Shown here in pieces: positions 4,533 to 25,306 of a stretch of DNA of 44,189 nt. The DNA is taken from the IMG/VR virus record IMGVR_UViG_3300005527_000094, positions 1-44,189 of that record; one strand, given 5' to 3'. How positions within the stretch are numbered: the first letter of the stretch is position 1; the number at the start of each line of letters is the position of its first letter. The position numbers and the translations under genes were made by a program. Origin of the DNA: a virus. Below the pieces are notes generated by a model. It worked only from the letters and a program-made list of their open reading frames with translations, had not been told where the DNA came from and did not search any database.

Positions 4533-4561
4533 TTTAAAAAGATTTGAAGTATAAAAATAAA

Positions 4562-4590: not shown

Positions 4591-4606
4591 CAAACTAAAA
4601 TCACAA

Positions 4607-6061: not shown

Positions 6062-6079
6062 ATTGAAAAAAAGTGTTTT

Positions 6080-7180: not shown

Positions 7181-7250
7181 GTTGATAACACAAATTTAAG
7201 TTTGAAAATTAATATTTCTTAAGTTTTATTCTTAAAGTTTTTTCATAATC

Positions 7251-11749: not shown

Positions 11750-11831
11750 GTTTATTTTTAGCTTTAACTTCTGATTTAGTTTTCAGTTCTTTAGGTCTTT
11801 TCTTGATTAACTTTTTAATAAGCTTAAACAT
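11742..11831 (-). CDS. 29-residue Lys-rich small frame
   Basis: An ATG at 11831 opens a 29-codon frame (MFKLIKKLIKKRPKELK, then TKSEVKAKNKHE) that ends in TAA overlapping the terminase start by eight bases. It fills the only gap between the 146-residue gene and terL. This overlap pattern is common for real coupled genes in this window. The product would be a strongly basic amphipathic peptide. It may instead be a leader that couples terL translation. Coding status is uncertain. Confidence 0.4.
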   Translation of the reverse strand: MFKLIKKLIKKRPKELKTKSEVKAKNKHE

Positions 11832-11832
11832 A

Positions 11833-12824: not shown

Positions 12825-13347
12825 TATCTTCTTGTTTAGGAGTCCAACAATATCCTTGATTTTTAATTCTTTCTTTCATTATACTGATGTAAAATTCAAA
12901 AGTGCCATCAAAGTATTTATCTTGAGATACAGCTCCAAACCATATTGAATGTGTACTTCCATCTACCCCATACTTTGTACTACCATTAGGTACATACATA
13001 TCTTCAAACAAACACTCTAATTCTTCATCTAAGTTTTTACTTAACCAATCATTGTTGTAATTAACAGTCCAATCATCAAGTACATTCTGAACTTCGTGTA
13101 AAGATAATTCTTCTTTTAACTTTACACAACTAACTTCAGGTATTTTTAACCACTTCTTTCCAAACAATTTATAATACCATTTTAAATTAGAGTAACCTTG
13201 AAAGAATCTCCATGACTTTTCTAACAACATATACTCACCTTCAGGAAAACAAACAGAACTTACTTCTAATTTTTGTATTCTTTTCTCTGTAAAAGTTTTA
13301 CCTAAAAAAGATGAAATTGCTGCGGATAATATTAGATAATTAATCAT
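12817..13347 (-). CDS. Uncharacterised protein with hydrophobic N terminus
   Basis: 176 residues. The first 16 residues (MINYLILSAAISSFLG) are hydrophobic and could be a signal anchor. The rest is rich in Trp and aromatic residues (KSWRFFQGYSNLKWYYKLFGKKWLKI), with an acidic middle (NLDEELECLFEDMYV). It starts within the stop of a 40-residue frame (ATGA overlap) and sits two genes after the endolysin, so a membrane-linked lysis accessory role such as holin or spanin helper is conceivable. That is inference from position only. Confidence 0.45.
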   Translation of the reverse strand: MINYLILSAAISSFLGKTFTEKRIQKLEVSSVCFPEGEYMLLEKSWRFFQGYSNLKWYYKLFGKKWLKIPEVSCVKLKEELSLHEVQNVLDDWTVNYNNDWLSKNLDEELECLFEDMYVPNGSTKYGVDGSTHSIWFGAVSQDKYFDGTFEFYISIMKERIKNQGYCWTPKQEDNG

Positions 13348-13466
13348 TTGTAATTTGTTTTACTTAAAAATTCAGTCTTTTTTGTAAAAATATCTGTAAG
13401 CCAAGCTTTTAACATATCTAATGTTAATTTTTTAGGCATTGATTTACCTTTGTTTATTGAACTCAT
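13344..13466 (-). CDS. 40-residue coupled small protein
   Basis: ATG at 13466 overlaps the endolysin stop (TAATG), and the TGA at 13344-13346 overlaps the start of the next gene (ATGA), so the frame is exactly tiled between two genes. The peptide (MSSINKGKSMPKKLTLDMLK, then AWLTDIFTKKTEFLSKTNYK) is basic with one amphipathic helix. The tiling on both sides is the main evidence that it is translated. Confidence 0.55.
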   Translation of the reverse strand: MSSINKGKSMPKKLTLDMLKAWLTDIFTKKTEFLSKTNYK

Positions 13467-14263
13467 TAGAATATATTTTTTTCAGGTACACCAATTTCTC
13501 TTAAAAACTTTGGAACATCAAAAGAAGGGCAAGCTTTATTTGCTACTTGATTGTGTCCTAACACCTTAATATCAGGATGCATTTCAATAGTATAAAGTAT
13601 TTCTTCTTTCAAAGATTCTATTTGACCTTTAGTTCTTGTATCTTTAGGTATTTGCCAATTTACTTTTTCTGCACCGCCTACATACACAATATGCCTACAA
13701 TTATTATTAAATGCTAAAGCACCAAAAGTAACTTCAAAACTTTCAATAACTGAATCTTCATTAACAGGATTAATAATAGAAGTAGAACCATCTAAATGAA
13801 TCATCTTATGATAACCTGGTTTAGTCCAACCTCTACCTTGTAAATTTCTAATATGTACTCCACCAATTAACTCATCAGGCAAATCATTTTTAGTTTTGTA
13901 CCTTTTAGTTTTGTAAATCCATTCTCCTGTTGGTTTACCATTAACAAGAACAGGACATGGTCCCATGTGAGTTTGTCTAATATTATCAGCAGTCCATTCT
14001 TGTCCTTCACGAGATGCAGTACAATGAATCATTAAATACAAAAGTCTATTAGAAAGAATTGCTGTCTTGTTATTAAGTGCATTCCAAGTTTGTTGTCCAA
14101 CAATTCCATCAACAGATAATCCTGCTATCTTTTGAAAATCCATTACAGCTTTCTGCACTTTATCTCCAAAGAAACCATCTATAGTTTCCTTATATAATCC
14201 AACTTCTCTAAGTGCTACTTGTAGTTGAATTACACTTTCTCCTTTTGAGCTTTTACTTAACAT
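13466..14263 (-). CDS. Endolysin: N-acetylmuramoyl-L-alanine amidase with PG-binding domain
   Basis: 265 residues. Residues 1-65 are a peptidoglycan-binding type 1 domain (SKGESVIQLQVALREVGLY, ending VDGIVGQQTWNALN). Residues 72-255 are an Amidase_2/PGRP-type domain with likely zinc ligands His80 (LMIHCTAS), His237 (LGHNQV) and Cys245 (KACPSFDV), and a GYHKMIHLDG strand at 150-159. It cuts the bond between muramic acid and the stem peptide during lysis. No signal peptide is seen, so export needs a holin or similar. It sits at the start of the late operon, near small unknown genes. Confidence 0.88.
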   Translation of the reverse strand: MLSKSSKGESVIQLQVALREVGLYKETIDGFFGDKVQKAVMDFQKIAGLSVDGIVGQQTWNALNNKTAILSNRLLYLMIHCTASREGQEWTADNIRQTHMGPCPVLVNGKPTGEWIYKTKRYKTKNDLPDELIGGVHIRNLQGRGWTKPGYHKMIHLDGSTSIINPVNEDSVIESFEVTFGALAFNNNCRHIVYVGGAEKVNWQIPKDTRTKGQIESLKEEILYTIEMHPDIKVLGHNQVANKACPSFDVPKFLREIGVPEKNIF

Positions 14264-14268
14264 GATAA

Positions 14269-14565
14269 TTATGATTTAATAATGAAACCTTTAATGTACA
14301 ATACTTGAGTAGTGCCATCACTAAAAGTAATAGTTAGATTTTTAACAATTTGTTGCTTAGTTTGTGTATCCTTTAAATGAGATGCAATAGCAGGAACATC
14401 ATAAGTTGCCTTAATGACATTACTCCCTTCTTTGTAATCTACTAAAGTACAACCACACCCTGCTTTAATTTCAGTAATCTTTTTATCTCCTTGATACTCA
14501 AATTCAGCAATGACTACTGTACCTTTTTTAGCATCTCCAAAATCATAAGTTGTTGTGTTCCACAT
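14269..14565 (-). CDS. DUF1573-family Ig/ASH-like protein
   Basis: I chose the ATG at 14565, one base after the upstream stop; a longer start at 14601 would overlap that gene by 35 bases. From this start (MWNTTTYDFGDAKKGTVV) the protein is a single DUF1573 domain. Recognisable are the FGDAKKGTVVIAEFEYQG strands, the GCGCT motif with paired Cys, and a C-terminal strand (TQVLYIKGFI). DUF1573 proteins are abundant in Bacteroidota and usually secreted; this one lacks a signal peptide. It lies just before the endolysin. A role in the virion or at the cell envelope is possible but unknown. Confidence 0.7.
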   Translation of the reverse strand: MWNTTTYDFGDAKKGTVVIAEFEYQGDKKITEIKAGCGCTLVDYKEGSNVIKATYDVPAIASHLKDTQTKQQIVKNLTITFSDGTTQVLYIKGFIIKS

Positions 14566-14566
14566 A

Positions 14567-14920
14567 TTATTTGTTTTTATTGATTTCATTTTTAATATCA
14601 ACCCAATGTTCTCTTATTTGTTTCCAATCTTTTCTATTATGAAATGCAGGATAACATTCACCTTCACAAGATTTATTAGAAAGGGTAAGTGCAGGAATAT
14701 CACAACCACAAATCTTACATTGTCCATTGTTGTAACACTCTCTATCCATTAACTCTAATCTCATTTCAAATTGTTCCTTGATATGTTTTCTCATTAAGAA
14801 CTTCCATCTTGAATAATACAACTTCTCCCTGTAATGACCTTGAAAGAAATACCAAACATCAATCCACTTTCTTTCTCCTCTTATAAGCTGCATCAAATAA
14901 TAAGGGATTCTTTTCAACAT
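14567..14920 (-). CDS. Small Cys-rich protein, probable zinc-binding
   Basis: 117 residues, basic and aromatic in the first half (RKWIDVWYFFQGHYREKLYYSRWKF). A Cys cluster follows at about residues 66-90 (CKICGCDIPALTLSNKSCEGECYPAFH), with spacing that suggests one zinc site. The first ATG gives a 62-base overlap with the upstream gene; an internal ATG at 14893 would shorten this to 35. I keep the longer form because its upstream context is the A/T-rich one typical of starts here. Function not recognised. Confidence 0.55.
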   Translation of the reverse strand: MLKRIPYYLMQLIRGERKWIDVWYFFQGHYREKLYYSRWKFLMRKHIKEQFEMRLELMDRECYNNGQCKICGCDIPALTLSNKSCEGECYPAFHNRKDWKQIREHWVDIKNEINKNK

Positions 14921-15218
14921 AATTTTTTAAGTTTTGTAATTGTTGAAAACATTCATAATTTTCAACAGGGTGATTAAAATGTCTATAAGTGCTAATCTTT
15001 TCCTCTAATCTTCTTATACCTGAAAGTACAGGTTTTGCAAATATCTGAAAACTACCAAATCCTTTTAATCTAACATCAGGTAAATCTTCACTTCCCATCT
15101 TCTTTTTAAAATACCTAAAAGTAGAATTAATAGCATCATGAAATTCAGATTCATTTAGTTGTGGATATTTATCCTTAACCTTACTATAGTATCTTTCAAC
15201 TAATGGATTCCTTGCCAT
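14859..15218 (-). CDS. IHF/HU-like DNA-binding protein (candidate)
   Basis: 119 residues. The stretch EFHDAINSTFRYFKKKMG followed by DVRLKGFGSFQIFAKPVLSGIRR resembles the helix-helix-strand start of HU/IHF proteins, where a GFGxF turn is diagnostic. The C-terminal part is helical and charged. crAss-like phages commonly encode IHF-like proteins near the late-operon start, which fits. It would bend or coat DNA for packaging or late transcription. The assignment is moderate because the DNA-binding arm is not clearly delimited. Confidence 0.5.
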   Translation of the reverse strand: MARNPLVERYYSKVKDKYPQLNESEFHDAINSTFRYFKKKMGSEDLPDVRLKGFGSFQIFAKPVLSGIRRLEEKISTYRHFNHPVENYECFQQLQNLKNYVEKNPLLFDAAYKRRKKVD

Positions 15219-15558
15219 CTTTTTTGTTTATTAGTTGAATTAAATATTCTTGTTTATCTTCACTTGGCATTAATGCAGAAAGTATCTCATTTGCATCAGA
15301 GATAAACTTCTTTTCTTTTAAACTTTTAAGATAGTTTCCTAATCCACCATCAGATAAGTTAAGAGTTTGTTTTACAAACTTTCTTGCAGTAGCTCCAAAT
15401 CTATCTTTAGCTATGTCACCTTTAAGTGACATAAAACAAGCTAACACCTCTATCTCTTTAGGTGTTAGTTTAACAGGGATAAGTGCATTAACAATAGATA
15501 AATGCACAATATAATACTGATTTGGCTCAAGTGTTAATTTCTTGCTTAATGGTTTCAT
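15196..15558 (-). CDS. Winged-helix-like regulator (first gene of late operon)
   Basis: 120 residues. LTPKEIEVLACFMSLKGDIAKDRFG is followed by ATARKFVKQTLNLSDGGLGNYLKSLKEKKFI, the pattern of a winged-helix domain (recognition helix around SDGGLGNYLKSLKEK, then the wing). It is the first gene transcribed leftward from the divergent region and overlaps the next gene by 23 bases, so it may control late transcription or its own divergent promoter. The function is inferred from fold resemblance and place. Confidence 0.55.
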   Translation of the reverse strand: MKPLSKKLTLEPNQYYIVHLSIVNALIPVKLTPKEIEVLACFMSLKGDIAKDRFGATARKFVKQTLNLSDGGLGNYLKSLKEKKFISDANEILSALMPSEDKQEYLIQLINKKDGKESIS

Positions 15559-15758: not shown

Positions 15759-15846
15759 CCCCTCTAATAAAACCCCACCCTTTTCTAATTTGATTTTCAT
15801 ACCCCCACCTTTGCTCCAATGTTTTCTTTTCTTGGCACATAAATAT

Positions 15847-15879
15847 CCTTTCCCTTTCCACTTCCCTTTAGTTTTGACA
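15847..15879 (+). promoter_or_regulatory. Phage promoter-like element, copy A
   Basis: C/T-rich tract ending CTTTAGTTTTGACA, followed by AATACTC and then TATCATG, the start of the 15915 gene. The same layout precedes the 16939 gene (TATAATACTC then TATCATG). It is one of five similar elements in the window; TTGACA could serve as a -35 box. Confidence 0.65.
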
Positions 15880-15914
15880 ATAAATTAATTTAAACCATTT
15901 AATACTCTACTATC

Positions 15915-16184
15915 ATGGCTGATGTAAAATTCTTCTCAGTGGCTCAGGTCAAAGCACACTTTGGTGTGACAGAAATTAAAGTTGTGAAAAACCCAAAGAC
16001 AGACAAACTATTTGTCATTGTCGATGAAGATACCGCACTCAAATGTCAACAAGACATTGATGTTAAAGGTAATCTCTCATTCATCTGTAGTGAATTTGAT
16101 AAGAAAGGCAATCCTATTATGGAATCTGCATGTCTTATCAATGTAGCAGAAGGTGCAGGACTCACAACCTTAACCACACTCTAA
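15915..16184 (+). CDS. Small conserved early protein, unknown
   Basis: 89 residues (MADVKFFSVAQVKAHFGVTE then IKVVKNPKTDKLFVIVDEDT), predicted as a small alpha/beta fold. It is the first rightward gene after the divergent region, with its own promoter-like element 36 bases upstream of the ATG and a perfect hairpin terminator 17 bases after the stop, so it is a single-gene unit. Its codon use is less AT-biased than its neighbours, consistent with high expression. No function recognised. Confidence 0.7.
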   Translation: MADVKFFSVAQVKAHFGVTEIKVVKNPKTDKLFVIVDEDTALKCQQDIDVKGNLSFICSEFDKKGNPIMESACLINVAEGAGLTTLTTL

Positions 16185-16200
16185 CAAATCACAAACCATT

Positions 16201-16232
16201 GAAATACTATATCCCGTAAGGTATAGTATTTC
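16201..16232 (+). terminator. Hairpin terminator after the 15915 gene
   Basis: GAAATACTATA and TATAGTATTTC form a perfect 11-bp stem around a 10-base loop, followed by CTTTTTATTT. Confidence 0.8.
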
Positions 16233-16264
16233 TTTTTATTTAACCTATCACATTTCACACTATT

Positions 16265-16447
16265 ATGAAACTATCATTCATCATGCTCAAACTTATACCT
16301 TTCATTGTAGGTATAAGTTTTATAATCATGGCATTTATACCACAAACTTATGTTGACCAAAAAATAGGTGACTTCATACAAATGTATTTAGGCATTTCTT
16401 TTGGTCTAATATTCATTTGGATGTCTTTTATTAAATTAGATAAATAA
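16265..16447 (+). CDS. Small membrane protein, two transmembrane segments
   Basis: 60 residues. Two hydrophobic helices are evident, about residues 5-25 (FIMLKLIPFIVGISFIIMAF) and 39-57 (MYLGISFGLIFIWMSFI), joined by a short polar loop with QTYVDQK and ending in KLDK. It lies alone between a terminator and the second promoter-like element. Small two-helix proteins of phages can act as holins or in superinfection exclusion; neither is shown. Confidence 0.6.
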   Translation: MKLSFIMLKLIPFIVGISFIIMAFIPQTYVDQKIGDFIQMYLGISFGLIFIWMSFIKLDK

Positions 16448-16478
16448 AAGAGTATTTTACTTTTTTATTTCTATTAAT

Positions 16479-16511
16479 CCATTCCCTTCACACTCCCATT
16501 AAGTTTTGACA
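16479..16511 (+). promoter_or_regulatory. Phage promoter-like element, copy B
   Basis: CCATTCCCTTCACACTCCC tract followed by ATTAAGTTTTGACA. It directly precedes a 350-base stretch with no gene but much predicted secondary structure, so it probably drives a non-coding RNA. Confidence 0.6.
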
Positions 16512-16868
16512 GGGTAGACTCATAAAACCCTGCTTTCCGAAAGAAGGCGCATAATTATGACAAGACGAATTTACAATGCACTTGGTTTAAAAGCATTGTT
16601 AACTATTAACAACATACTAATTAAGATACAATCAGTTTGTGAAAACTGATGCAGTACAACAAGAAGTAACTAAGCAATGGTGCACAATTGTTTAGAAGAA
16701 AATTGCTACTGTGAGTGATGTCAGTTGGAAGACTATATTCTCTACTTTATCTTAATGAAATAATGTATGCTCTGTTAATAGTTTTTTAAATAATCAAGTG
16801 TACTAAGCTGTACACACTTAAATCCACAGCCGAGTCATCGAATAAAGGGAGCTTGATTATTTATTTTT
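16512..16868 (+). ncRNA. Structured non-coding transcript candidate, about 350 nt
   Basis: No convincing frame is present. Visible hairpins include CAGGGT/ACCCTG at its 5' end, ATCAGTTT/AAAACTGAT near 16630, and GTGTAC/GTACAC at 16798-16815. A closing stem of AAATAATCAAG (16788-16798) with CTTGATTATTT (16852-16862) is followed by a T-rich run, a terminator. A promoter-like element lies directly upstream and another directly downstream. Together these bound one independent RNA gene. It is not recognisable as a known RNA family by eye. Confidence 0.55.
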
Positions 16869-16874
16869 TATTTA

Positions 16875-16908
16875 TCCCTTACCTATCCACCCCAACTTAG
16901 TCTTGACA
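16875..16908 (+). promoter_or_regulatory. Phage promoter-like element, copy C
   Basis: Tract ATCCCTTACCTATCCACCCC followed by AACTTAGTCTTGACA, then TATAATACTC and TATCATG at the next gene. TATAAT with TTGACA resembles a -35/-10 pair but with a short spacer of 13, so a phage-specific polymerase or activator is possible. Confidence 0.65.
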
Positions 16909-16938
16909 TTTATTACAAACTTATAATACTCACTTATC

Positions 16939-17301
16939 ATGAAAGCTGTACTCACTCTTATCCTAATCATGTTGTTGACTTGTCTTCATTTGTCAACTTA
17001 TGCACAAAATACTGTTGCTACTCACAAAACTGTAGTAGCAACACCTACAGTTACCCTCAAGTTAGAGGGTAAAGTACAAGTTGTAGAAGCAAAAGGTAGC
17101 AGAATCATTGTTGAAACCTATGTTAGCACTAATGGTGGCACTGTAGCTACTCAACAAGTTGCTAACACTGCAACACCAATTGCAACTGTAGTTAATGAAA
17201 ACAATACTGTTATCTCACAAGGAAAACAGTTCATTGTGAATAATCACAATGCAAGTGTTTCATACAAAGTGTTCATACCTAAAGGAACAACTGTAAACTA
17301 A
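16939..17301 (+). CDS. Small secreted protein with signal peptide
   Basis: 120 residues. A classical signal peptide (MKAVLTLILIMLLTCLHL, cleavage probably after TYA before QN) is followed by a Thr/Val-rich beta-type domain (VATPTVTLKLEGKVQVVEAK ... NHNASVSYKVFIPKG). Cleavage before Gln is typical of Bacteroidota. It would reach the periplasm or outer membrane. It has its own promoter-like element and terminator. A role such as blocking superinfection or shielding the surface is a guess. Confidence 0.65.
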   Translation: MKAVLTLILIMLLTCLHLSTYAQNTVATHKTVVATPTVTLKLEGKVQVVEAKGSRIIVETYVSTNGGTVATQQVANTATPIATVVNENNTVISQGKQFIVNNHNASVSYKVFIPKGTTVN

Positions 17302-17305
17302 TTTC

Positions 17306-17329
17306 AGAGAGAGTGTAACAACTCTCTCT
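17306..17329 (+). terminator. Hairpin terminator after the secreted-protein gene
   Basis: AGAGAGAGT and ACTCTCTCT pair perfectly around GTAACA, followed by TTTTTTC. Confidence 0.85.
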
Positions 17330-17358
17330 TTTTTCTTTATTTTTTAAAACCTAAAGAC

Positions 17359-17637
17359 ATGCTACAAACAAATGTAAATTATACAGTAGAACAAATAGCA
17401 AAAGCAGTTGAAATTAAATCTCAACTTGCTAAAAACTTTGACAAATTTACTAAAACACAAGAAGATGAATCTTTCACTTGTGCATGGAGTACTGAACCTG
17501 ATGCAGATGGAGATTGTAATTGGGAAACTTTTAGATTTTTTACAAATGGTAGATGTCAAATATCAGGAAACAATTACCATAGAGTTAAAAAATATATTAT
17601 CAGAACTGATGATGGCTCAATTGAATTTATCAACTAA
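17359..17637 (+). CDS. Small protein, unknown
   Basis: 92 residues (MLQTNVNYTVEQIAKAVEIK, then a Cys- and Trp-containing centre FTCAWSTEPDADGDCNWETF). It is enclosed by terminators on both sides. The N-terminal helix and C-terminal strands (YIIRTDDGSIEFI) suggest a small alpha/beta fold. An overlapping longer frame in another phase (17408-17692) runs across the downstream terminator and is judged a shadow. Function unknown. Confidence 0.6.
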   Translation: MLQTNVNYTVEQIAKAVEIKSQLAKNFDKFTKTQEDESFTCAWSTEPDADGDCNWETFRFFTNGRCQISGNNYHRVKKYIIRTDDGSIEFIN

Positions 17638-17641
17638 TCAT

Positions 17642-17668
17642 AAGGGAATCCCTAACAAGGATTCTCTT
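17642..17668 (+). terminator. Hairpin terminator
   Basis: AAGGGAATCC pairs with GGATTCTCTT (one G-U) around CTAACAA, followed by TTATTTTTT. Confidence 0.75.
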
Positions 17669-17699
17669 TTATTTTTTAATTTAACTAAATAATAAAGCT

Positions 17700-18059
17700 A
17701 TGAGTTTAGATATTTATGGTACAATGCCTGTACAAACACATCAATGTCCTAATTGTGGACATTGTGAAATAGGAACTTATGAAACCATATTTGAACATAA
17801 CATTACTCATAACCTTAGAGATATGGCAAGAGAATCAGGTTGTGGTATTTTATGGGATATGGATTATGATACAAAAGCAGGTGCTTTAATTGCTCCATTA
17901 ACTGAAGCAATACAAAATTTGCAAAATCATCCTGAAAAATTCAATGTATTTTCAGCATCTAATGGTTGGGGAACAAGAGAACAATTCATTCCTTGGTTAC
18001 AAAAACTATTAGTTGATTGCATTGCATTTCCACATGCAACTTTAAATATATCCAAATAA
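17700..18059 (+). CDS. Small protein with N-terminal zinc-ribbon-like Cys pair
   Basis: 119 residues. CPNCGHC at about residues 17-23 provides a Cys knuckle; the rest is helical with WDMDYDTKAGALIAPLTEAI and a Trp-rich centre (FSASNGWGTREQFIPWLQKL). A second Cys knuckle is not obvious. Bounded by terminators on both sides, so transcribed alone or by read-through. Function unknown. Confidence 0.6.
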   Translation: MSLDIYGTMPVQTHQCPNCGHCEIGTYETIFEHNITHNLRDMARESGCGILWDMDYDTKAGALIAPLTEAIQNLQNHPEKFNVFSASNGWGTREQFIPWLQKLLVDCIAFPHATLNISK

Positions 18060-18065
18060 CAAACC

Positions 18066-18097
18066 AAAGAATAACTGTAGAAATACAGTTATTCTTT
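18066..18097 (+). terminator. 14-bp hairpin terminator with GAAA tetraloop
   Basis: AAAGAATAACTGTA pairs perfectly with TACAGTTATTCTTT around GAAA, followed by T-rich sequence. Confidence 0.85.
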
Positions 18098-18112
18098 TAA
18101 ATTTATTTAAAC

Positions 18113-18313
18113 ATGAGTGAAGATTCAATTGTAAGACAAAACTTAATGGAAGTAGAAAATTACTCTCCTTATTGTGGTAATGACAATTGTAAACATAGAA
18201 ATCCAAGAACTACTTGGAGTCCACAAATTGAACAATTTACTTGTTCTTGTGGTTGGAGTTCTAAGTTTCCAATTGACTTTATTACAAGATATAAAAAGAA
18301 ATGGAACAAATAA
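18113..18313 (+). CDS. 66-residue zinc-ribbon protein
   Basis: Contains CGNDNCKHR near residues 21-29 and FTCSCGWSSKF near 43-53, giving two Cys/His pairs of a likely zinc ribbon, and a basic C terminus (RYKKKWNK). Twelve bases separate it from the next gene, which also ends in a zinc knuckle. It may bind nucleic acid or a host protein; not recognised. Confidence 0.6.
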   Translation: MSEDSIVRQNLMEVENYSPYCGNDNCKHRNPRTTWSPQIEQFTCSCGWSSKFPIDFITRYKKKWNK

Positions 18314-18325
18314 AACTATATAATT

Positions 18326-18616
18326 ATGAGCAATGAAAAAATGCCTGAAACTATCAAAGTTAATTTTTGGTGTAATGCAGGTTATACTGAAGAAATAGTT
18401 GAAGTAAAACTATATGAAGACAACGGCACCATTGAAGAACAAATACAAGAAGCATTTGAAAAATGGCTTGATAACAATGAAGATGTAGGTTGGGATATAG
18501 TTACTGATGAAAATGATATAACTTGCCCTTTTTGTGAAAGTGAAGAGAAAACAGAACTAAATACATATTGTAAATGGTTATGTTCTAATTGTGATAATGC
18601 TTACGGAGAAAACTAA
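18326..18616 (+). CDS. Small acidic protein with C-terminal zinc ribbon
   Basis: 96 residues. The first 65 are acidic and probably alpha/beta (IKVNFWCNAGYTEEIVEVKL ... EKWLDNNEDVGWDI). The last 30 hold CPFCESEE and WLCSNCDNAY, a four-Cys zinc ribbon. It forms a pair with the preceding zinc-ribbon gene and ends at a terminator. Function unknown. Confidence 0.6.
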   Translation: MSNEKMPETIKVNFWCNAGYTEEIVEVKLYEDNGTIEEQIQEAFEKWLDNNEDVGWDIVTDENDITCPFCESEEKTELNTYCKWLCSNCDNAYGEN

Positions 18617-18620
18617 AAAA

Positions 18621-18642
18621 AGAGAGCTTTAATTAGCTCTCT
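18621..18642 (+). terminator. Hairpin terminator
   Basis: AGAGAGCT pairs with AGCTCTCT around TTAATT. The downstream T run is weak (TATTG), so it may stop transcription only partly. Confidence 0.6.
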
Positions 18643-18671
18643 TATTGTAAACTTTTAAATATAAACAAATT

Positions 18672-18953
18672 ATGCAATATATATTATCAATCAAATTCCC
18701 TAAAATTGGATGGTGTTCTTATGAAACTTATAAAACTGAAGCAATGGATACAGTTGCATTAAGTTTTAAAGATTTTCCACATCATATTCTTGTAACTGTA
18801 TTTCATGAACAATTAAAATCAGGGCCTACAAGTGTAGGAGATTTTATTAAAGTTATTGCAGTAACAAGGGATGGAAATGTGAATGAGTTTAAATCTTATG
18901 AAGATTTTAAACAATATTTAATTGATATTTTTGATACTGAATTTGATTATTAA
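18672..18953 (+). CDS. Small protein, unknown
   Basis: 93 residues, mixed alpha/beta (MQYILSIKFPKIGWCSYETY ... DFIKVIAVTRDGNVNEFKSY), acidic C terminus. It is followed immediately by a long inverted repeat. No family recognised. Confidence 0.6.
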   Translation: MQYILSIKFPKIGWCSYETYKTEAMDTVALSFKDFPHHILVTVFHEQLKSGPTSVGDFIKVIAVTRDGNVNEFKSYEDFKQYLIDIFDTEFDY

Positions 18954-18955
18954 AC

Positions 18956-19064
18956 ACAAATGTCAATATGAAAAAAACTTTACAGGGGTTTCCTCTCTCT
19001 GGACTCTCTCCTTTACCAATATATAAGGGAAGGGAGTAAAGTATTATTTCATATTGACATTTGT
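18956..19064 (+). ncRNA. Long-armed inverted repeat, structured RNA candidate
   Basis: The 18-base arm ACAAATGTCAATATGAAA (18956-18973) is the exact reverse complement of 19047-19064. A second stem inside pairs ACTTTAC (18977-18983) with GTAAAGT (19036-19042). Between them is a C/T-rich stretch with CTCTCTC. There is no T run, so it is not a simple terminator. It could be an RNA, a processing site or a protein-binding cruciform. The right arm overlaps TTGACATTTGTCAA just before the next gene. Confidence 0.5.
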
Positions 19065-19093
19065 CAATTTTTATCAATTTTTAATTTATAAAA

Positions 19094-19597
19094 ATGAACA
19101 TATTTTTTAAAAGATTAGTTCATTATAAAACAAATATTTTTATGCTATGTCAAAACTTTTTAATTACTTATAAAAATGCAGAGGGATTACATTATGCTCC
19201 TTATGTTGTAACTAAAGCAACAGAACTTTTATATTTAATATCAGAACAATTATGTTATTTAGATTTAGAATATTCTAAGATTAGAAATGTATTAGTGTTT
19301 TCAGGTGGTAGTTGGGATTTTAAATATAATGAATATGGCCCAAAAATTATTACAAAACACGAGCAAAGAATAGATTCAGGTACAGGAATGATTACTTGGG
19401 ATATAGAATACAATGAAGAAATGGTTACAGCATTCTACAATTTAATACTAAAATGGGAAATGCTTCCACATTATTTTAACACACTTGCAGAATTTGTAGA
19501 AATCTATGGTGAGCAAATAAATTTATTACTTGGTGATTTTAAATCTATTAATAATATTGAATTAGTTATTCAACTACTTGATAGTTTAATGAGTTAA
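19094..19597 (+). CDS. Uncharacterised protein
   Basis: 167 residues, mainly helical with aromatic residues (VTKATELLYLISEQLCYLDL ... LPHYFNTLAEFVEIYGEQIN) and a central strand region (NVLVFSGGSWDFKYN). It is preceded by the inverted repeat and ends directly at a terminator whose first bases overlap the stop. No function recognised. Confidence 0.6.
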   Translation: MNIFFKRLVHYKTNIFMLCQNFLITYKNAEGLHYAPYVVTKATELLYLISEQLCYLDLEYSKIRNVLVFSGGSWDFKYNEYGPKIITKHEQRIDSGTGMITWDIEYNEEMVTAFYNLILKWEMLPHYFNTLAEFVEIYGEQINLLLGDFKSINNIELVIQLLDSLMS

Positions 19598-19624
19598 ATA
19601 TAAAAGGAGAAATCCTTTTATATT
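19597..19624 (+). terminator. Hairpin terminator with GAAA tetraloop
   Basis: AATATAAAAGGA pairs with TCCTTTTATATT around GAAA, followed by TTCTTTTC. Confidence 0.85.
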
Positions 19625-19634
19625 TTCTTTTCAT

Positions 19635-19667
19635 CCATTCCCTCTCCACCCCCACTTATTTTGGACA
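19635..19667 (+). promoter_or_regulatory. Phage promoter-like element, copy D
   Basis: CCATTCCCTCTCCACCCCC followed by ACTTATTTTGGACA. A TATTAGTTTG box, matching the Bacteroidota -7 consensus TAnnTTTG, lies at about 19690. It stands before a non-coding stretch closed by a terminator. Confidence 0.6.
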
Positions 19668-19875
19668 ATTAAATTATTACAGTTATCGTATTAGTTTGAC
19701 ATGGTGTATTAGTGTAATAATGTTATGGAAATAAAACAAACTAAAGGTGTTTTCCTTATTGCTTTGGAAATGTAAATCCACAATCTCAGAGCATTAGCAA
19801 ACTCGAATTCTAAAATTAAAGAGTGTTAAGCTCAAACTTAAAGGGAATGTCAATGAAAAACATTCCCTTTATTTT
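19668..19875 (+). ncRNA. Small non-coding transcript candidate, about 180-200 nt
   Basis: A promoter-like element precedes it, and a terminator hairpin ends it: AAAGGGAATGT (19840-19850) pairs with ACATTCCCTTT (19860-19870), then ATTTTACT. No reading frame of useful length is present. The unit is therefore best read as a short RNA gene, or as a leader attenuator for the structured region that follows. No known family recognised by eye. Confidence 0.5.
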
Positions 19876-19879
19876 ACTA

Positions 19880-20400
19880 AATAACAAAAGTCCAAACATC
19901 TAATAATATTGATTGTAGTTTTCTATAGGGAAACATAGTTGATATTGTTATACAAATTATTAAAATCATGTAATATTAAAACGTAGTTCTTGGTTATTCA
20001 GCATACCAAACAATAAGTTAAAATAAACAAACAGGCTAAACATTGATTCCTGAATGAACAGAAGTAAGCTTACAGCAATAAGGTGTAATTCCTTAACATG
20101 TTAGTGGATTAAAGTTCTACTGTAAGCTAAGTAAGCAAAATTCATTAAAGATGTCCAATGAAAGTTGGAATGTGTTGTTCTCTTGAGAAAGGAATAAAAA
20201 TCTATAGGTAAGAGGGAAAGCCAAGTAGCCCTACAACACAAATGAGTTCTCAGCAAGTGATTATGTATAGTTGAAAGTACTGCACTATCTGAAATATTGA
20301 TAGAACGAAATCATTGAAATAATCACGTGACCCTACTCTTACAATGACAGAGAAATCGTTTCCTTTGGGGATAGTTGTAAGAGAGGGTTCTAAAAAAATA
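19880..20400 (+). ncRNA. Large structured non-coding region upstream of HNH gene
   Basis: About 520 bases with no gene but many exact long-range pairings. AGCTTACAG (20067-20075) pairs with CTGTAAGCT (20120-20128) and encloses TAAGG/CCTTA. TGTGTTGT (20171-20178) pairs with ACAACACA (20233-20240). GTGATTAT (20257-20264) pairs with ATAATCAC (20319-20326) and encloses the CTATC/GATAG hairpin. A 14-bp stem with one bulged A joins 20330-20344 to 20375-20388. This looks like one multi-branched RNA. It may be an ornate phage RNA, as known near phage tRNAs, or part of a self-splicing intron. The strand is taken from the surrounding genes. Confidence 0.55.
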
Positions 20401-20410
20401 AATTTATCAT

Positions 20411-20725
20411 ATGGAAAAGTGGAAAAACATTGAAGAATCTAATAATTATGAAATATCTAATTATGGCAGATTTAAAAACAGAAAAGGTAAAATATTAAAA
20501 TGTAATATAAATAAAAGAGGATATTTATATTGTAACATTAGTATTAAAGGTAAAGTTAAAAAAGTAAAAATTCACATCTTAGTAGCTAAAGCTTTTTGTG
20601 AAAATTTACAAAACAAAGATACAGTTAACCATATGGATGGGAATAAACTCAATAATAACAGTTCAAATTTAGAATGGTTAACAAGAAAAGAAAATGTTCA
20701 ACATTATTATAAAAACAAAAAGTAA
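20411..20725 (+). CDS. HNH homing endonuclease with NUMOD4 motif
   Basis: 104 residues. The start (EKWKNIEESNNYEISNYGRFKN) is the NUMOD4 motif. The HNH motif follows: His55 in KIHILVAKAF, NHMDGNKLNNN at 73-83 with His74 and Asp76, and NLEWLTRKENVQH at 86-98. Such enzymes nick or cut DNA and spread as selfish elements, free-standing or inside introns. It sits inside a highly structured non-coding stretch, with structured RNA on both sides, so it may have inserted into, or be carried by, an RNA element. Confidence 0.88.
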   Translation: MEKWKNIEESNNYEISNYGRFKNRKGKILKCNINKRGYLYCNISIKGKVKKVKIHILVAKAFCENLQNKDTVNHMDGNKLNNNSSNLEWLTRKENVQHYYKNKK

Positions 20726-20851
20726 AAATGGTTATATGTAGTCAGCCCTGAAAGTTGGCAGCTAACCATTTGTTTAACAATGTAAAGAAATAGTTAGTCA
20801 GCTGGTGTATAGTTGCCTAACGTCCACAATTTAGCACGTACATTGTTTTTT
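20726..20851 (+). ncRNA. Structured RNA segment downstream of HNH gene
   Basis: Two adjacent hairpin modules. AAATGGTTA (20726-20734) pairs with TAACCATTT (20763-20771). AACAATGTA (20776-20784) pairs with TACATTGTT (20839-20847) and is followed by TTTTTAA, a terminator-like end. Each module contains TAGTCAGC, so they may be duplicates. With the structured stretch upstream of the HNH gene this may form one RNA interrupted by the gene. Confidence 0.5.
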
Positions 20852-20888
20852 AACTAATTTAATAACTCTAAATAAAACTCAAAAAACC

Positions 20889-21635
20889 ATGAAAAACTAT
20901 CAAAAAATTACAACAGAAGAAATCTTAAATTTCTTAATGCAATTTTCTATTTTTGGAAATGCTTCAGAATTTATTAGACAATACCTTTGCCTTATGTTTA
21001 TGATTAAAACTGAAGACAAAGATGTAAAATTACAAATTGACCTTGTAACTAAAGGTTATAAAGAATTAATAAGAACTTTAAAAATGCAAAGTGCTAATCA
21101 CACTTATGATGAAGATGCACGAGTATTTGTTATTCCTGAATTACTTATTATTTGGGATAATAAAATAGAAAGAAGATGTATTGAAGATTTTAAAGACCTT
21201 GAACTTTTACATGCTGATGATTGGACTTTAATATCTAAGAAAACTTTCTTATTAACTTCTGACAAAGGTTTGCAAAGAACAATTATGTATTTTGAAGAAA
21301 TAGAAAACAATTTTTACACAACTCCCGAACAAGGAAATTATTTTCAAGAAAGTGAGCCAAAACTTATGTTCTTTCAATTGATGTTTCTTAACATGTTTAA
21401 AAAACAAGTTAACAATAGAAATTGTAATTGGCCTGTAATGAATCAAATGTTTAAGGGAGCATTTGAAGAACTTTGTGAAATCCCTGTAGCTATCAATATT
21501 GACACTAAAAGAATTTTCAATTTTAATCATTATCTTAGACAATCAAGAGAATACAATGAAATTGATGATTGTATTTATGTTAATAACACAATCATTGATG
21601 AAAATTGGCACATAGAAAATAAAATTGCAGCATAA
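20889..21635 (+). CDS. Uncharacterised 248-residue protein
   Basis: 248 residues, largely helical, with aromatic and charged residues (ITTEEILNFLMQFSIFGNAS, then EDARVFVIPELLIIWDNKIE, later LMFFQLMFLNMFKKQVNN). No signal peptide and no recognisable catalytic motif. It is the largest gene of the accessory region and stands alone between the structured RNA stretch and a GAAA-loop terminator. Confidence 0.6.
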   Translation: MKNYQKITTEEILNFLMQFSIFGNASEFIRQYLCLMFMIKTEDKDVKLQIDLVTKGYKELIRTLKMQSANHTYDEDARVFVIPELLIIWDNKIERRCIEDFKDLELLHADDWTLISKKTFLLTSDKGLQRTIMYFEEIENNFYTTPEQGNYFQESEPKLMFFQLMFLNMFKKQVNNRNCNWPVMNQMFKGAFEELCEIPVAINIDTKRIFNFNHYLRQSREYNEIDDCIYVNNTIIDENWHIENKIAA

Positions 21636-21640
21636 TCATT

Positions 21641-21662
21641 AGGGGAGTAGAAATATTCCCCT
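21641..21662 (+). terminator. Hairpin terminator with GAAA tetraloop
   Basis: AGGGGAGTA pairs with TATTCCCCT (one G-U) around GAAA, followed by TTATTTTTT. Confidence 0.85.
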
Positions 21663-21693
21663 TTATTTTTTAATTTTGATAATAATTAACATT

Positions 21694-21984
21694 ATGAACA
21701 GCATCATAGAAGCAATTGAAAAAGAAGTCAAAAGACTTATGTCAACTTCTAATAGATTTGGAGGTAAAAGACAAGAAACTTATGAAACAGCATTAAAAGA
21801 GGTATTGAGATTTATAGAACCTCTTAAAAATCAAGAATTAACAAATCAACAATATCATTTTAATCATGGAAAAACTCATGGTTTTGAACAAGCAAAATCA
21901 GTTTATGACCCTCAAGTAAATCTTTTACAAAACATTTTGAAATTAACCAATGAATTTAATCAACAAAATCCACCATTAACATGA
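21694..21984 (+). CDS. Small helical protein, unknown
   Basis: I take the ATG at 21694; an upstream TTG at 21676 would add six residues but is less likely. The 96-residue product is helical and charged (MNSIIEAIEKEVKRLMSTSN ... YETALKEVLRFIEPLKNQEL). Its stop overlaps the next start by four bases (ATGA), so it is coupled with the outer-membrane-like gene. Function unknown. Confidence 0.6.
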   Translation: MNSIIEAIEKEVKRLMSTSNRFGGKRQETYETALKEVLRFIEPLKNQELTNQQYHFNHGKTHGFEQAKSVYDPQVNLLQNILKLTNEFNQQNPPLT

Positions 21985-22436
21985 AAAACATTATTATTTT
22001 ATTAGCACTTTTTATTGTTCAGTTTAGCAATGCACAAGTTAATCCTCATTTTGGATTAGGCATTGATTACGGAGTTGAACAAGAAACAAAACCTGCAATT
22101 ATTGTAGGAATTGATTACAAATTACTACGTGCTCACATTGGAGTATTCCCTAATTTTTATAAATTGGGAATAGGAATGCAAAAGGGATATTGTGTATTTG
22201 ATGTACACCAAAAATACTTTGTCACTAACAAAGAGATAACAGTAAATTGGTCAAATATCATTTACAAACATAAGAGTTTTGTAACTGGTGTAACTGCTGG
22301 AGGTAGATACATATTTAAAGATAAGTTAGAAGTTAATTTAAACTTTGGACTTGATTGGATATGGAAAAGTCAAAAAGCAAATACTAATGTTACATTCTCA
22401 CTATTATTTCACATTAAACCACATGAGTTTAAATGA
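21981..22436 (+). CDS. Signal-peptide protein, small outer-membrane beta-barrel candidate
   Basis: 151 residues. A signal peptide (MKNIIILLALFIVQFSNA, cleaved before QV) is followed by alternating strands with aromatic ends (FGLGIDYGVEQ, AIIVGIDYKLL, RAHIGVFPNFYKLGIGMQKG, VTAGGRYIFKDKLEVNLNFG, TFSLLFHI). This fits a small beta-barrel or surface beta protein of a Bacteroidota envelope. It overlaps the genes on both sides by four bases. If made during infection it could change the host surface, for example by masking a receptor; that role is inferred. Confidence 0.6.
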   Translation: MKNIIILLALFIVQFSNAQVNPHFGLGIDYGVEQETKPAIIVGIDYKLLRAHIGVFPNFYKLGIGMQKGYCVFDVHQKYFVTNKEITVNWSNIIYKHKSFVTGVTAGGRYIFKDKLEVNLNFGLDWIWKSQKANTNVTFSLLFHIKPHEFK

Positions 22437-22735
22437 ATAAAGTAAAATGTATTAATGACAACTTTTCAAAAGTAATTGAAGAGTTAACAAGAGAAGCTAA
22501 AGGATTGCCATTATCTTTTCCTGTAAAAGGAGAAACTTACACCATTAGAGAAACATTTGACAATGATGGATTAGTAGTTTCTTATTTACTTGAAGAGATA
22601 AGAAATCCTACATTTACCATTCCTTCATTGGGTGGTATTAGAAGAGAACTCTCATTTGCTGAATGGAGATTTGAACATATTCATGAAGACATTACAGCAG
22701 AAATAGAAGAAACACAATTATTACAAACTATTTAA
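22433..22735 (+). CDS. Small protein, unknown
   Basis: 100 residues, alpha/beta (VIEELTREAKGLPLSFPVKG ... YTIRETFDNDGLVVSYLLEE), acidic C terminus. ATGA overlap with the outer-membrane-like gene upstream shows translational coupling. The fold resembles small phage early proteins, with no motif I can name. Confidence 0.6.
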   Translation: MNKVKCINDNFSKVIEELTREAKGLPLSFPVKGETYTIRETFDNDGLVVSYLLEEIRNPTFTIPSLGGIRRELSFAEWRFEHIHEDITAEIEETQLLQTI

Positions 22736-22747
22736 TTAAAACAAATC

Positions 22748-23056
22748 ATGAAAAACATCAAATTCAAAAGCACAGGAGCTGTAATCAGAGCAACAAATGA
22801 AGAAGCTAAATTACTTCATCAAGAAGATTTAGTTGTATATGTAAATAAAGGAAAACAAAAATCCTATGCTAACAAACAACTAAAGAAATTGAACAATTAT
22901 GTGTTTGGTAAACTAAGAGCAGGCAAGAAACAAGTAATTGTTAATGAAGCTAAAAAACAATTTAGTTTCATTCATATCAAAACACAAGGCAAAACCTCAT
23001 ACCCTGTACATGCAGGAATGAGAAACAGTTATGACATAAAATTCCAAGAGAATTAA
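22748..23056 (+). CDS. Small basic protein, unknown
   Basis: 102 residues, Lys-rich (MKNIKFKSTGAVIRATNEEA ... NKGKQKSYANKQLKKLNNYV). Mixed alpha/beta with a positively charged surface, so nucleic-acid binding is possible but not shown. It starts 12 bases after the previous gene and is followed by a perfect GAAA-loop terminator. Confidence 0.6.
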   Translation: MKNIKFKSTGAVIRATNEEAKLLHQEDLVVYVNKGKQKSYANKQLKKLNNYVFGKLRAGKKQVIVNEAKKQFSFIHIKTQGKTSYPVHAGMRNSYDIKFQEN

Positions 23057-23067
23057 TTAGTAACATT

Positions 23068-23093
23068 AAAGGGAATGAGAAATCATTCCCTTT
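23068..23093 (+). terminator. Hairpin terminator with GAAA tetraloop
   Basis: AAAGGGAATGA pairs perfectly with TCATTCCCTTT around GAAA, followed by TCAATTT. Confidence 0.85.
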
Positions 23094-23108
23094 TCAATTT
23101 ATAAAACT

Positions 23109-23384
23109 ATGGGAAAAAAGAAATATAATGTAGAGCAATTAATTCAAGAAGCTTTACACAATGAATGGGTAGGTAAAACAATACATTATGACTATTATTT
23201 AGATACAAATAAAATAATGGTGAGTGATGAAGTTGAACCTAAACATAACTTGTTAGTGAGTAATGTGAAAGTTGAAACAATACTTGGAAAACATCATGTG
23301 TATTTTCAAGGATATGATATTTCTACAACAAGAGAAGAATCTAAATGGGTTGAAGTAATTTCATTTTTTCGTAACACTTTTTAA
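23109..23384 (+). CDS. Small protein, unknown
   Basis: 91 residues, beginning with a basic helix (GKKKYNVEQLIQEALHNEWV) and then strands (TIHYDYYLDTNKIMVSDEVE ... HHVYFQGYDISTTREES). It opens a new unit after a terminator and precedes a 29-residue frame. No family recognised. Confidence 0.55.
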   Translation: MGKKKYNVEQLIQEALHNEWVGKTIHYDYYLDTNKIMVSDEVEPKHNLLVSNVKVETILGKHHVYFQGYDISTTREESKWVEVISFFRNTF

Positions 23385-23396
23385 TTTCAAACAACT

Positions 23397-23486
23397 ATGA
23401 ATATTCAGAATAATGGTGGAGAAACCACTACAGGACAAGAAGCACCTTCTCAAACACAAATTAAGACTGGAGCAGGACAAAGATGA
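23397..23486 (+). CDS. 29-residue Gln/Gly/Thr-rich small protein
   Basis: ATG at 23397, TGA at 23484-23486 overlapping the ATG of the next gene (ATGA). The peptide (MNIQNNGGETTTGQEAPSQT, then QIKTGAGQR) is polar and probably disordered. The ACTATG start context and the exact stop/start overlap support translation. Function unknown; it may mainly couple translation of the next gene. Confidence 0.5.
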   Translation: MNIQNNGGETTTGQEAPSQTQIKTGAGQR

Positions 23487-23752
23487 GCAAACAAGAAATA
23501 GAAGAATTCTTAGATGAATGTTATGGAAACATAAAGAAATCTATAGATTCAGGAGCAGTTGAGGGATGTACTAAAGCAGTAATTAAAGCTAATTTATTAT
23601 ATTGCTATACCCAATTACAAATGAGATTTTTAGAAAATCATAATCTCAGAAAATTTGAAGAAAACAAAGAAATTATACATGCTTGTGTTGAATTAAGTAA
23701 TGAACAAGCAGTATTTGTAAATAACTATTTTAAATCATTGAAAAAACCATAA
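23483..23752 (+). CDS. Small helical protein, unknown
   Basis: 89 residues, all-helical (SKQEIEEFLDECYGNIKKSI ... ANLLYCYTQLQMRFLENHNL). Coupled to the preceding 29-residue frame by ATGA and followed after two bases by a membrane protein gene. Unknown. Confidence 0.6.
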   Translation: MSKQEIEEFLDECYGNIKKSIDSGAVEGCTKAVIKANLLYCYTQLQMRFLENHNLRKFEENKEIIHACVELSNEQAVFVNNYFKSLKKP

Positions 23753-23754
23753 TT

Positions 23755-23937
23755 ATGACATATTTATTATTTTCAGTATTAGTTGCACTTGGAATGACAA
23801 TTGGTGAAATTGATTGGAAAAAACCAAGTTTTCTTGAAATATTAGTTTCTTTCATAGTTCTTTTTCCATTACATTTTGCAATATGGCCTATACTTATGGG
23901 TGCAACATTTGTAAAAATTAAAAGAAATCTCAAATGA
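23755..23937 (+). CDS. Small membrane protein, two transmembrane segments
   Basis: 60 residues. Helices at about 2-17 (TYLLFSVLVALGMTIG) and 27-50 (FLEILVSFIVLFPLHFAIWPILMG), basic tail (VKIKRNLK) suggesting a cytoplasmic C terminus. The stop overlaps the next start by four bases. An antisense frame of similar length is a shadow. Role unknown; holin-like size, but it is far from the endolysin. Confidence 0.6.
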   Translation: MTYLLFSVLVALGMTIGEIDWKKPSFLEILVSFIVLFPLHFAIWPILMGATFVKIKRNLK

Positions 23938-24188
23938 AAATAGAAATTATAAATGGAGCTGATGACAGTATCATAGAATCTTATGATTCTAATGTTGTAG
24001 AATCTGCAATTTATCTTCCAATGTTACATGTAGGAGATAGTGTGTTAACAATTGGTGGATTACATGGAATTATCATTTATAAAGAATTAGATATTTTTAG
24101 AAAAATTCTTAGAATATTCTTATCTTTAAGTATTGATAAAATGGATGATACATTAAGTGCACAACCACAACAAAGAAATGGGGAATGA
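23934..24188 (+). CDS. Small protein, unknown
   Basis: 84 residues. A beta-rich start (MKIEIINGADDSIIESYDSN ... GDSVLTIGGLHGIIIYKEL) is followed by an amphipathic helix (FRKILRIFLSLSIDKM). Overlaps the membrane protein gene by four bases. Unknown. Confidence 0.6.
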   Translation: MKIEIINGADDSIIESYDSNVVESAIYLPMLHVGDSVLTIGGLHGIIIYKELDIFRKILRIFLSLSIDKMDDTLSAQPQQRNGE

Positions 24189-24417
24189 AAAGTATAAGGC
24201 AAGTGATTCTTGCATGAAAAAGATGTTTGGAGATTTAGTTGTTAATTCTCCAAAAAAAGATGTAATAATACTAAGAGGAGAAAACTCTTCTCTTAGTATT
24301 TTTGTTGGAAAGTATAATAACAAAAGCATATTAAAAAAGTGGATAGATGATAACAACATTAATCTTAATGCTGATGACGATTGTGTGTTTAATACTGATA
24401 ATCCTCAAACAACGTAA
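24178..24417 (+). CDS. Small protein, unknown
   Basis: I use the ATG at 24178, which overlaps the previous gene by eleven bases; a GTG at 24157 is possible but less likely. 79 residues (MGNEKYKASDSCMKKMFGDL ... VIILRGENSSLSIFVGKYNN), ending in a polar Asn/Asp-rich tail. Unknown. Confidence 0.5.
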   Translation: MGNEKYKASDSCMKKMFGDLVVNSPKKDVIILRGENSSLSIFVGKYNNKSILKKWIDDNNINLNADDDCVFNTDNPQTT

Positions 24418-24433
24418 AAGAAAACAAATAACT

Positions 24434-24631
24434 ATGTTAACTACAGACATAAAAGTTGATGAACCAATACTTATTCTTTTACAAATTGCTAATGAGAATT
24501 CATCTGCACTTGTAATTAAAGAGCATATACCTAAATCAATGGTTATAGGTACAACTGAAAATGTTAGTGGTGTTATACAAGAATTAAAGAAAACTAATGA
24601 AATATCTTTAATGGTTTTTCATTTAAACTAA
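24434..24631 (+). CDS. Small protein, unknown
   Basis: I use the ATG at 24434 (context AACTATG). A longer form from 24347 would overlap the previous gene by 71 bases with a spurious hydrophobic leader. The 65-residue product (MLTTDIKVDEPILILLQIAN ... VSGVIQELKKTNEISLMVFH) is alpha/beta. Its stop lies inside the following terminator stem. Unknown. Confidence 0.55.
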   Translation: MLTTDIKVDEPILILLQIANENSSALVIKEHIPKSMVIGTTENVSGVIQELKKTNEISLMVFHLN

Positions 24632-24652
24632 ATCTGTAAAAGGATTTAGTTT
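24625..24652 (+). terminator. Hairpin terminator closing the accessory gene run
   Basis: AAACTAAATC pairs perfectly with GATTTAGTTT around TGTAAAAG, followed by ATTTTTTA. The stop codon of the gene lies in the left arm. Confidence 0.8.
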
Positions 24653-24662
24653 ATTTTTTATT

Positions 24663-24698
24663 AGTCCTTCCCCTCAACACCCCCCCTTAGTTTTGACA
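24663..24698 (+). promoter_or_regulatory. Phage promoter-like element, copy E (tRNA unit)
   Basis: GTCCTTCCCCTCAACACC then CCCCTTAGTTTTGACA, followed by TTATAATTC. A second, host-like box TATATTTG (24737-24744, matching TAnnTTTG) lies 12 bases before the tRNA. The tRNA unit may thus be served by both phage-type and host-type promoters. Confidence 0.6.
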
Positions 24699-24756: not shown

Positions 24757-24829
24757 GTTTCCATAGCTCAATTGGAAGAGCAACAACCTTCTAAGTTGTA
24801 GGTTTCAGGTTCGAGTCCTGATGGGAATA
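24757..24829 (+). tRNA. tRNA-Arg (anticodon UCU)
   Basis: Cloverleaf: acceptor GTTTCCA pairs with TGGGAAT (two G-U), D-arm AGCTCAATTGGAAGAGC, anticodon stem ACAAC/GTTGT with loop CTTCTAA (anticodon TCT), T-arm TCAGG-TTCGAGT-CCTGA. CCA is not encoded. It reads AGA, the main Arg codon of these AT-rich genes, so it should support translation of phage mRNA. Confidence 0.93.
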
Positions 24830-24966
24830 CTAAAACAAAAATTAAATAATTATTTAAAGGCTAAATCTGAAGAATCATTACTGTTTGGCGTGTAATGAGA
24901 TTATTTAATTTAAGATTAAAACAAAAAGTTCATAGGGTAACGTGGGGTTACGTTTATTGTCAATTT

Positions 24967-24997: not shown

Positions 24998-25086
24998 GCT
25001 TCAATGGTGGAACAGGTATACACGCAGGACTTAAAATCCTGTAATCTGAAAAGATTGTGAGGGTTCAAATCCCTCTTGGAGTACCA
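24998..25086 (+). tRNA. tRNA-Leu (anticodon UAA), CCA encoded
   Basis: Acceptor GCTTCAA pairs with TTGGAGT, and ACCA follows at 25083-25086. The anticodon stem CAGGA/TCCTG encloses CTTAAAA (anticodon TAA). A long variable arm (AATCTGAAAAGATT) marks a class II tRNA, and the T-arm is GAGGG-TTCAAAT-CCCTC. It reads TTA, the commonest Leu codon here. Confidence 0.93.
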
Positions 25087-25180: not shown

Positions 25181-25225
25181 TTTTCATTTAACAATAAGTT
25201 TTTTTCATAGAGTTTTTAGGTTTAG

Positions 25226-25247
25226 AGAGTTGTAGAAATACAACTCT
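25226..25247 (+). terminator. Hairpin terminator with GAAA tetraloop before replication arm
   Basis: AGAGTTGTA pairs perfectly with TACAACTCT around GAAA, followed by TTTTTTTA. It is the second of two hairpins between the tRNAs and the 25307 gene and has no gene of its own directly upstream. Confidence 0.8.
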
Positions 25248-25306
25248 TTTTTTATGTAAATAATCAAATTAATATACCATTTTTAAACATTTTAAATTAA
25301 ACAACC

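Follow-up and report, generated by a model that had tools for sequence, protein, structure and literature searches.

The DNA analysed here, referred to as the window, is the whole 44,189-nucleotide stretch of IMG/VR virus record IMGVR_UViG_3300005527_000094, and our subject is a 34-bp element that recurs on one of its strands. Judged by sequence, it is part of the genome of a crAss-like phage, whose kinship to Flavobacterium phages suggests a freshwater origin. The terminase is ~51% identical to the protein encoded by Flavobacterium phage FpV4 (Fipvunavirus) and 38% identical to its counterpart in a gut crAss-like phage. A near-DNA search of phage records gave no match. Fpv3-like phages have been placed beside the five main crAss groups by Yutin et al. 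(PMC7886860). The window has the two-armed layout usual in this group, in which the minus strand (320-15558) encodes head and packaging functions and the plus strand after 15558 carries an early arm followed by replication genes; "early" is assigned by homology and by gene order. A 62-kb contig (G001) overlaps the window, is near-identical to it and encodes a 100% identical terminase protein; it extends into a structural and transcription block beyond the window. Within the early arm and up to the tRNA genes, the following copies of the element were found:

15846..15879, plus strand: element copy 1, predicted start G 15876, opens gene 15915-16184 with a leader of 39 nt
16478..16511, plus strand: element copy 2, predicted start G 16508, opens non-coding unit A
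16875..16908, plus strand: element copy 3, predicted start G 16905, opens gene 16939-17301 with a leader of 34 nt
19634..19667, plus strand: element copy 4, predicted start G 19664, opens non-coding unit B
24665..24698, plus strand: element copy 5, predicted start G 24695, opens the tRNA-Arg/tRNA-Leu unit

These five copies, all within 15846-24698, align without gaps over 34 bp to the consensus TCCWTYCCCTYTCCACNCCCACTTAGTTTTGACA and stand in register as TCCTTTCCCTTTCCACTTCCCTTTAGTTTTGACA, TCCATTCCCTTCACACTCCCATTAAGTTTTGACA, TCCCTTACCTATCCACCCCAACTTAGTCTTGACA, TCCATTCCCTCTCCACCCCCACTTATTTTGGACA and TCCTTCCCCTCAACACCCCCCCTTAGTTTTGACA, with TCC[TAC]T[TC] as their common beginning. An earlier, sequence-only reading of this DNA had described five copies of a C/T-rich tract followed by a core, ahead of two protein genes, two non-coding units and the tRNAs. 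All five were recovered within 1-2 bases of where it had put them and open just these units, and the element turned out to be longer and more regular than described. The core word TTTTGACA taken alone was rejected as a signal, as it occurs at chance level in this AT-rich genome (6 times in the window versus 7.2 expected); it is the composite element that is unusual. When both strands were scanned with a matrix that drew on relatives' copies alone, the five window sites took ranks 1-5 with 33.4, 32.5, 25.7, 23.3 and 18.0 bits, and the next-best site on either strand reached 11.8 bits. The best scores in 100 simulated 44-kb sequences had a mean of 10.7 bits (standard deviation 3.5, maximum 20.0), so that the weakest window copy falls below significance alone; with a matrix of 26 sites from other phages, however, this copy scores 27.8 bits against a null maximum of 24.4. 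Copy 1 obtains 23-50 bits by relatives-only and own matrices. Neither the remainder of the 44-kb window nor contig G001 contains any further copy.

A gap-free alignment of 38 sites from nine lineages defines the anatomy of the element. Positions are counted from an invariant G that served as alignment anchor, so its fixity follows from the anchoring. Between -30 and -10, G makes up 2.5% of the bases, and a C block lies at -15 to -12 (C in 34, 23, 22 and 26 of the 38 sites). Only C or T occurs at -9 and only T or G at -5, while T prevails at -8 and from -4 to -2, and A at -6; the invariant G is followed by A, C/T and A. In outline, the element comprises a G-free tract of pyrimidines and A (~-30 to -10) with its C block, the core [CT]T[TA]A[TG]TTT, the invariant G and ACA. 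In 18 coding units, the ATG lies 31-41 nt downstream of the invariant G.

On the upstream side, terminator hairpins with T-runs end 2-7 bases before window copies 2-5. One of them is the following:

24640..24660, plus strand: terminator hairpin CTAAATC...GATTTAG with T-run, starting a few bases upstream of the range given and ending 4 bases before copy 5

Because these terminators abut copies 2-5, no space is left for another promoter between terminator and element. This arrangement also bears on whether the element acts in RNA, as a leader or Rho-loading (rut-like) site whose C-rich, G-poor tract would serve upstream termination. The sense strand is indeed C-rich and G-poor and directly follows upstream units, but these units are already ended by intrinsic terminators, and copy 1 has no co-directional gene upstream. 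Moreover, a Rho rut site is a long C-rich, G-poor RNA that does not depend on a downstream core, whereas here a short tract stands in fixed register with TTANTTT-GACA and the start codons, and L022 and L197 have T in place of its C with the remainder of the element kept. We consider this explanation very improbable.

On the downstream side, some units carry a hairpin at the predicted start. A perfect stem begins exactly at the invariant G in L024 (GACAGA..TCTGTC), L030 (GCAGA..TCTGC) and L197 (GACAAC..GTTGTC), and within three bases of it in L007; the stems differ in sequence among these four. In window copy 2, the hairpin CAGGGT...ACCCTG lies directly 3' of the core. The stems at G resemble 5'-terminal RNA hairpins and favour a start at or near this base.

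The sequence-only reading had further pointed out a nearly identical context, AATACTC...TATCATG, in two of the units and taken it for a shared -10 region. The context is present in both, but it lies 14 bases before the ATG in each, and 25 versus 20 bases after the core G. Since its distance to the ATG is constant and that to the core is not, it belongs to the translation start, and a role as -10 was rejected. This matters for the strongest competing explanation, namely that host RNA polymerase reads these promoters, either unaided or after being redirected by a phage factor, injected or early, that recognises the C tract. The window core resembles TTGACA, and in copy 3 TTGACA stands 16 bases before AATACT; Bacteroidota promoters, too, carry TTG or TTTG upstream. 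Yet TTG is missing in 9 and TTTG in 16 of 31 sites, and none of the 31 has a full sigma-70 pair (TTGACA and TATAAT at a spacing of 15-19 bases). Sigma-70-like sites are fewer (49) than in shuffled sequences (59). In relatives, the core reads GGACA, GATA or TAGCAT, and the -10-like bases move with the ATG. The layout of Bacteroidota sigma promoters, TTTG ~20 bases before TAnnTTTG, was not found either: a core TTTG occurs in 15/31 sites, but TAnnTTTG follows downstream in 2/31, compared with 1 on the opposite strand as control, in agreement with the earlier remark that the layout departs from the host consensus. Reading by the host enzyme is therefore unlikely in our judgement, though it is the rival we take most seriously.

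Conservation in relatives, by which the sequence-only reading had proposed to judge the element, was borne out by a motif search, the copies being lineage-specific in sequence. At least eight lineages besides that of the window carry them, among these the cultured Flavobacterium phage FpV4, and all lie on the early strand ahead of early units. FpV4 has five copies, with sites near 83.7 kb, 87.8 kb and 0.3-0.4 kb of NC_041872; L023, L024, L030 and L034 at least three each, and G002 (85 kb) five on a single strand within 5.3 kb. Scans with each phage's own matrix found copies on the early strand only, spanning 9 kb in the window and G001, 5.3 kb in G002 and 3.4 kb in G003 (85 kb), and none in the late genes of G001, G002 or G003. 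The consensus is C-rich in most lineages and T-rich in G003 and L197, and the core varies between TTTTGACA, TTTGGGACA, TTATGATA and TTTATAGC, among others. Such divergence under a conserved architecture would fit co-evolution with a phage-encoded reader, for which each lineage is expected to have its own version of the element.

Repeated, strand-asymmetric sites that cluster near the switch of the gene arms could also, rather than being promoters, bind proteins of replication or genome partition, or mark places where the early module, whose content does vary between relatives, is preferentially shuffled. The copies, however, open units, lie at a near-constant distance to the start codon where the unit is coding, and show no inverted or regular spacing, which leaves this explanation the least credible of those considered.

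Several observations weigh against our interpretation of the element as a promoter for a phage enzyme. The first copies in relatives were found by resemblance to the window motif, so that the choice of sites there is partly steered by this motif and the discovery partly circular. Two further analyses depend less, or not at all, on that resemblance. In G003, the matrix of five copies picked up an unseen sixth, which scored 47.1 bits while the runner-up had 12.8. For L197, the top and largest family from a general repeat search, run with no motif as input, consists of four copies of TCCTTYYTTNACTTTAYTTTNAYTTATTTNNGAYAT, and a fifth copy is readable at ~4201. In addition, matrices transferred across lineages miss the G003 copies and recover those of FpV4 weakly; because they fail or nearly fail there, homology in these two phages rests on position, strand, register and the shared core. 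The 5' hairpins occur in a minority of units. Finally, searches of phi14:2 (100 kb) and of 68 kb of crAss001, two phages in which early transcription has been studied, gave no significant copy. As phi14:2 has a proven virion RNA polymerase (vRNAP) and yet no significant site, the element cannot yet be taken as the promoter type for the order at large.

What might read the element is indicated by contig G001. It contains a giant open reading frame (ORF) with a DFDID motif, a gene that the window itself does not include, which matches PHROG 16227 and aligns by BLASTP to the catalytic RNA polymerase subunit of phi14:2 (gp66 record, E 2e-25), DFDID against DFDID. With this homologue of a crAss-type vRNAP in G001, the window phage very probably packages such an enzyme. 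The injected polymerase of crAss-like phages is structurally closest to eukaryotic RNA-interference polymerases. In phi14:2, the vRNAP is injected and transcribes the early genes in a rifampicin-resistant manner (review PMC10136315). In L071, the giant vRNAP ORF holds in the same frame a Dda-like helicase, an ADP-ribosyltransferase (ART-PolyVal) domain and a weak ubiquitin-like match (E 0.17).

Altogether, strand specificity, confinement to the early region, position upstream of units, conservation with lineage variation and the vRNAP gene in G001 are best accounted for by a promoter that a phage polymerase reads, as the sequence-only reading had suspected. We have high confidence that the element is an early promoter, and we think it probable that the vRNAP is its reader. 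Upon injection, the single-chain, two-barrel vRNAP of crAss-like phages would recognise the element at the first transcription units and initiate at or within a few bases of the G of GACA, giving leaders of 31-41 nt with no separate -10 region. That transcription starts at the invariant G, or no more than three bases away from it, is in our estimate about as likely as not. With somewhat less assurance than we name the reader, we favour the view that the element represents a class of promoters read by the RNA-interference-polymerase-like virion enzyme of crAss-like phages: 34 bp of double-stranded DNA with a C tract and a start core, diverged together with the polymerase across lineages. The open literature searched, which did not cover the key phi14:2 study, contains no description of a promoter signal for a crAss-like vRNAP.

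The units opened by the element, with the features that adjoin them, are these:

15915..16184, plus strand: first early gene, 89 aa, PHROG 15744
16508..16860, plus strand: non-coding RNA unit A, also at L022 5926-6325 and L007 ~4900-5140
16939..17301, plus strand: early gene, 120 aa
19664..20400, plus strand: non-coding RNA unit B, key block ACAAATGAGTTCTCAGCAAG near 20239
20411..20725, plus strand: HNH homing-type endonuclease gene (NUMOD4 and HNH_3), adjoining RNA B
24757..24830, plus strand: tRNA-Arg (TCT)
24998..25086, plus strand: tRNA-Leu (TAA)
25224..25249, plus strand: terminator-like hairpin at the end of the tRNA unit; replication genes follow from 25307

Homologues of gene 15915-16184 stand first in the early arm of relatives, and in L023 and L007 this gene is duplicated, each copy with its own element. 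RNA A shows 93% identity over 184 nt in the L022 group, and its 3' part is conserved in L007; this RNA, with TTAACAACATACTA...AATGTATGCTCTGTTAA, was found only among close relatives of the window phage. The core of RNA B is present in phi14:2 as well as in 88 IMG/VR stretches, some on contigs as long as 373 kb; loci are L081 ~3150-3380 and L092-L178. Its stems covary: 56 of 70 pairs are fully complementary, versus a mean of 34.6 with shuffled partners, and the stems are of 11 distinct kinds. Neither RNA has a match in Rfam, and RNA B, which is large and structured, is apparently an undescribed, widespread phage RNA family. Genes for transfer-messenger RNA (tmRNA) were seen in phage genomes at L081 4031-4500 (phi14:2, near RNA B), L128 and L166, and a tmRNA-like sequence was recognised by eye at ~81-83 kb of FpV4. 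A further intergenic stretch, AAAACTTTACARGG...CTCTCT, is conserved at 18954-19095 of the window, L023 3441-3498, L030 ~3840 and L024 ~4116; it is C/T-rich as the promoter element is, but lacks the core.

We also considered copy 5 as the driver of the replication operon. This is not supported, since a terminator lies between copy 5 and gene 25307 in the window, and hairpins like 25224-25249 are found in several relatives; because the terminator precedes it, the operon probably has a start of its own. Terminator hairpins with the loop context GTAGNAATAC lie directly upstream of the homologue of gene 25307 in L183, L189, L193 and L197, and in the first three of these that segment can also base-pair with a copy of itself further upstream, in the manner of an attenuator.

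crAss-like phages rank among the most abundant human gut viruses. Now that a defined element is available in several copies and many natural variants, and with FpV4 as a cultured carrier, how their vRNAP recognises promoters becomes directly testable; the element further suggests that early non-coding RNAs belong to the first products.

Among known systems, coliphage N4 likewise has early promoters for a virion-injected polymerase, with several copies ahead of the first units. The N4 promoters are hairpins upstream of the start, and the N4 enzyme is T7-like, not two-barrel. In the element described here, a G-C hairpin cannot form since the upstream tract is nearly G-free, and the mean pairing probability from -20 to -10 is below 0.3. 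Bacteroidota sigma promoters share an AT-rich context and the TTTG of part of the cores, but differ in their TAnnTTTG at a fixed distance, and relatives of the window phage have GATA or TAGCAT as core. In phi14:2 (L083 47997-48070; phi14:2 97997) and crAss001 (L082 184-100, minus strand), one C-rich stretch and then a short hairpin precede the first early gene. These leaders (CCCCCACTCTTTTTTGGAATTGGGGAGTATCCCC and CCTCCCCCATCACTTAGCCAGTGGGGTCCTACCCC) are a possible distant counterpart of copy 1 and, not being significant by matrix, a lead only; they share the C-rich stretch and hairpin, but are single where the window element is multi-copy. For Thermus phage P23-45, a short motif lies upstream of the pre-early and early starts used by its vRNAP and non-virion RNA polymerase (nvRNAP), and the vRNAP motif was found only in relatives that encode this enzyme (PMC10770324). 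The polymerase of P23-45 is likewise a single-chain, two-barrel phage enzyme, related to that of crAss-like phages, whereas its motifs are AT-rich (vRNAP) or GC-rich (nvRNAP) and the window, from an unrelated phage, has a C-rich tract with CTTANTTT-GACA.

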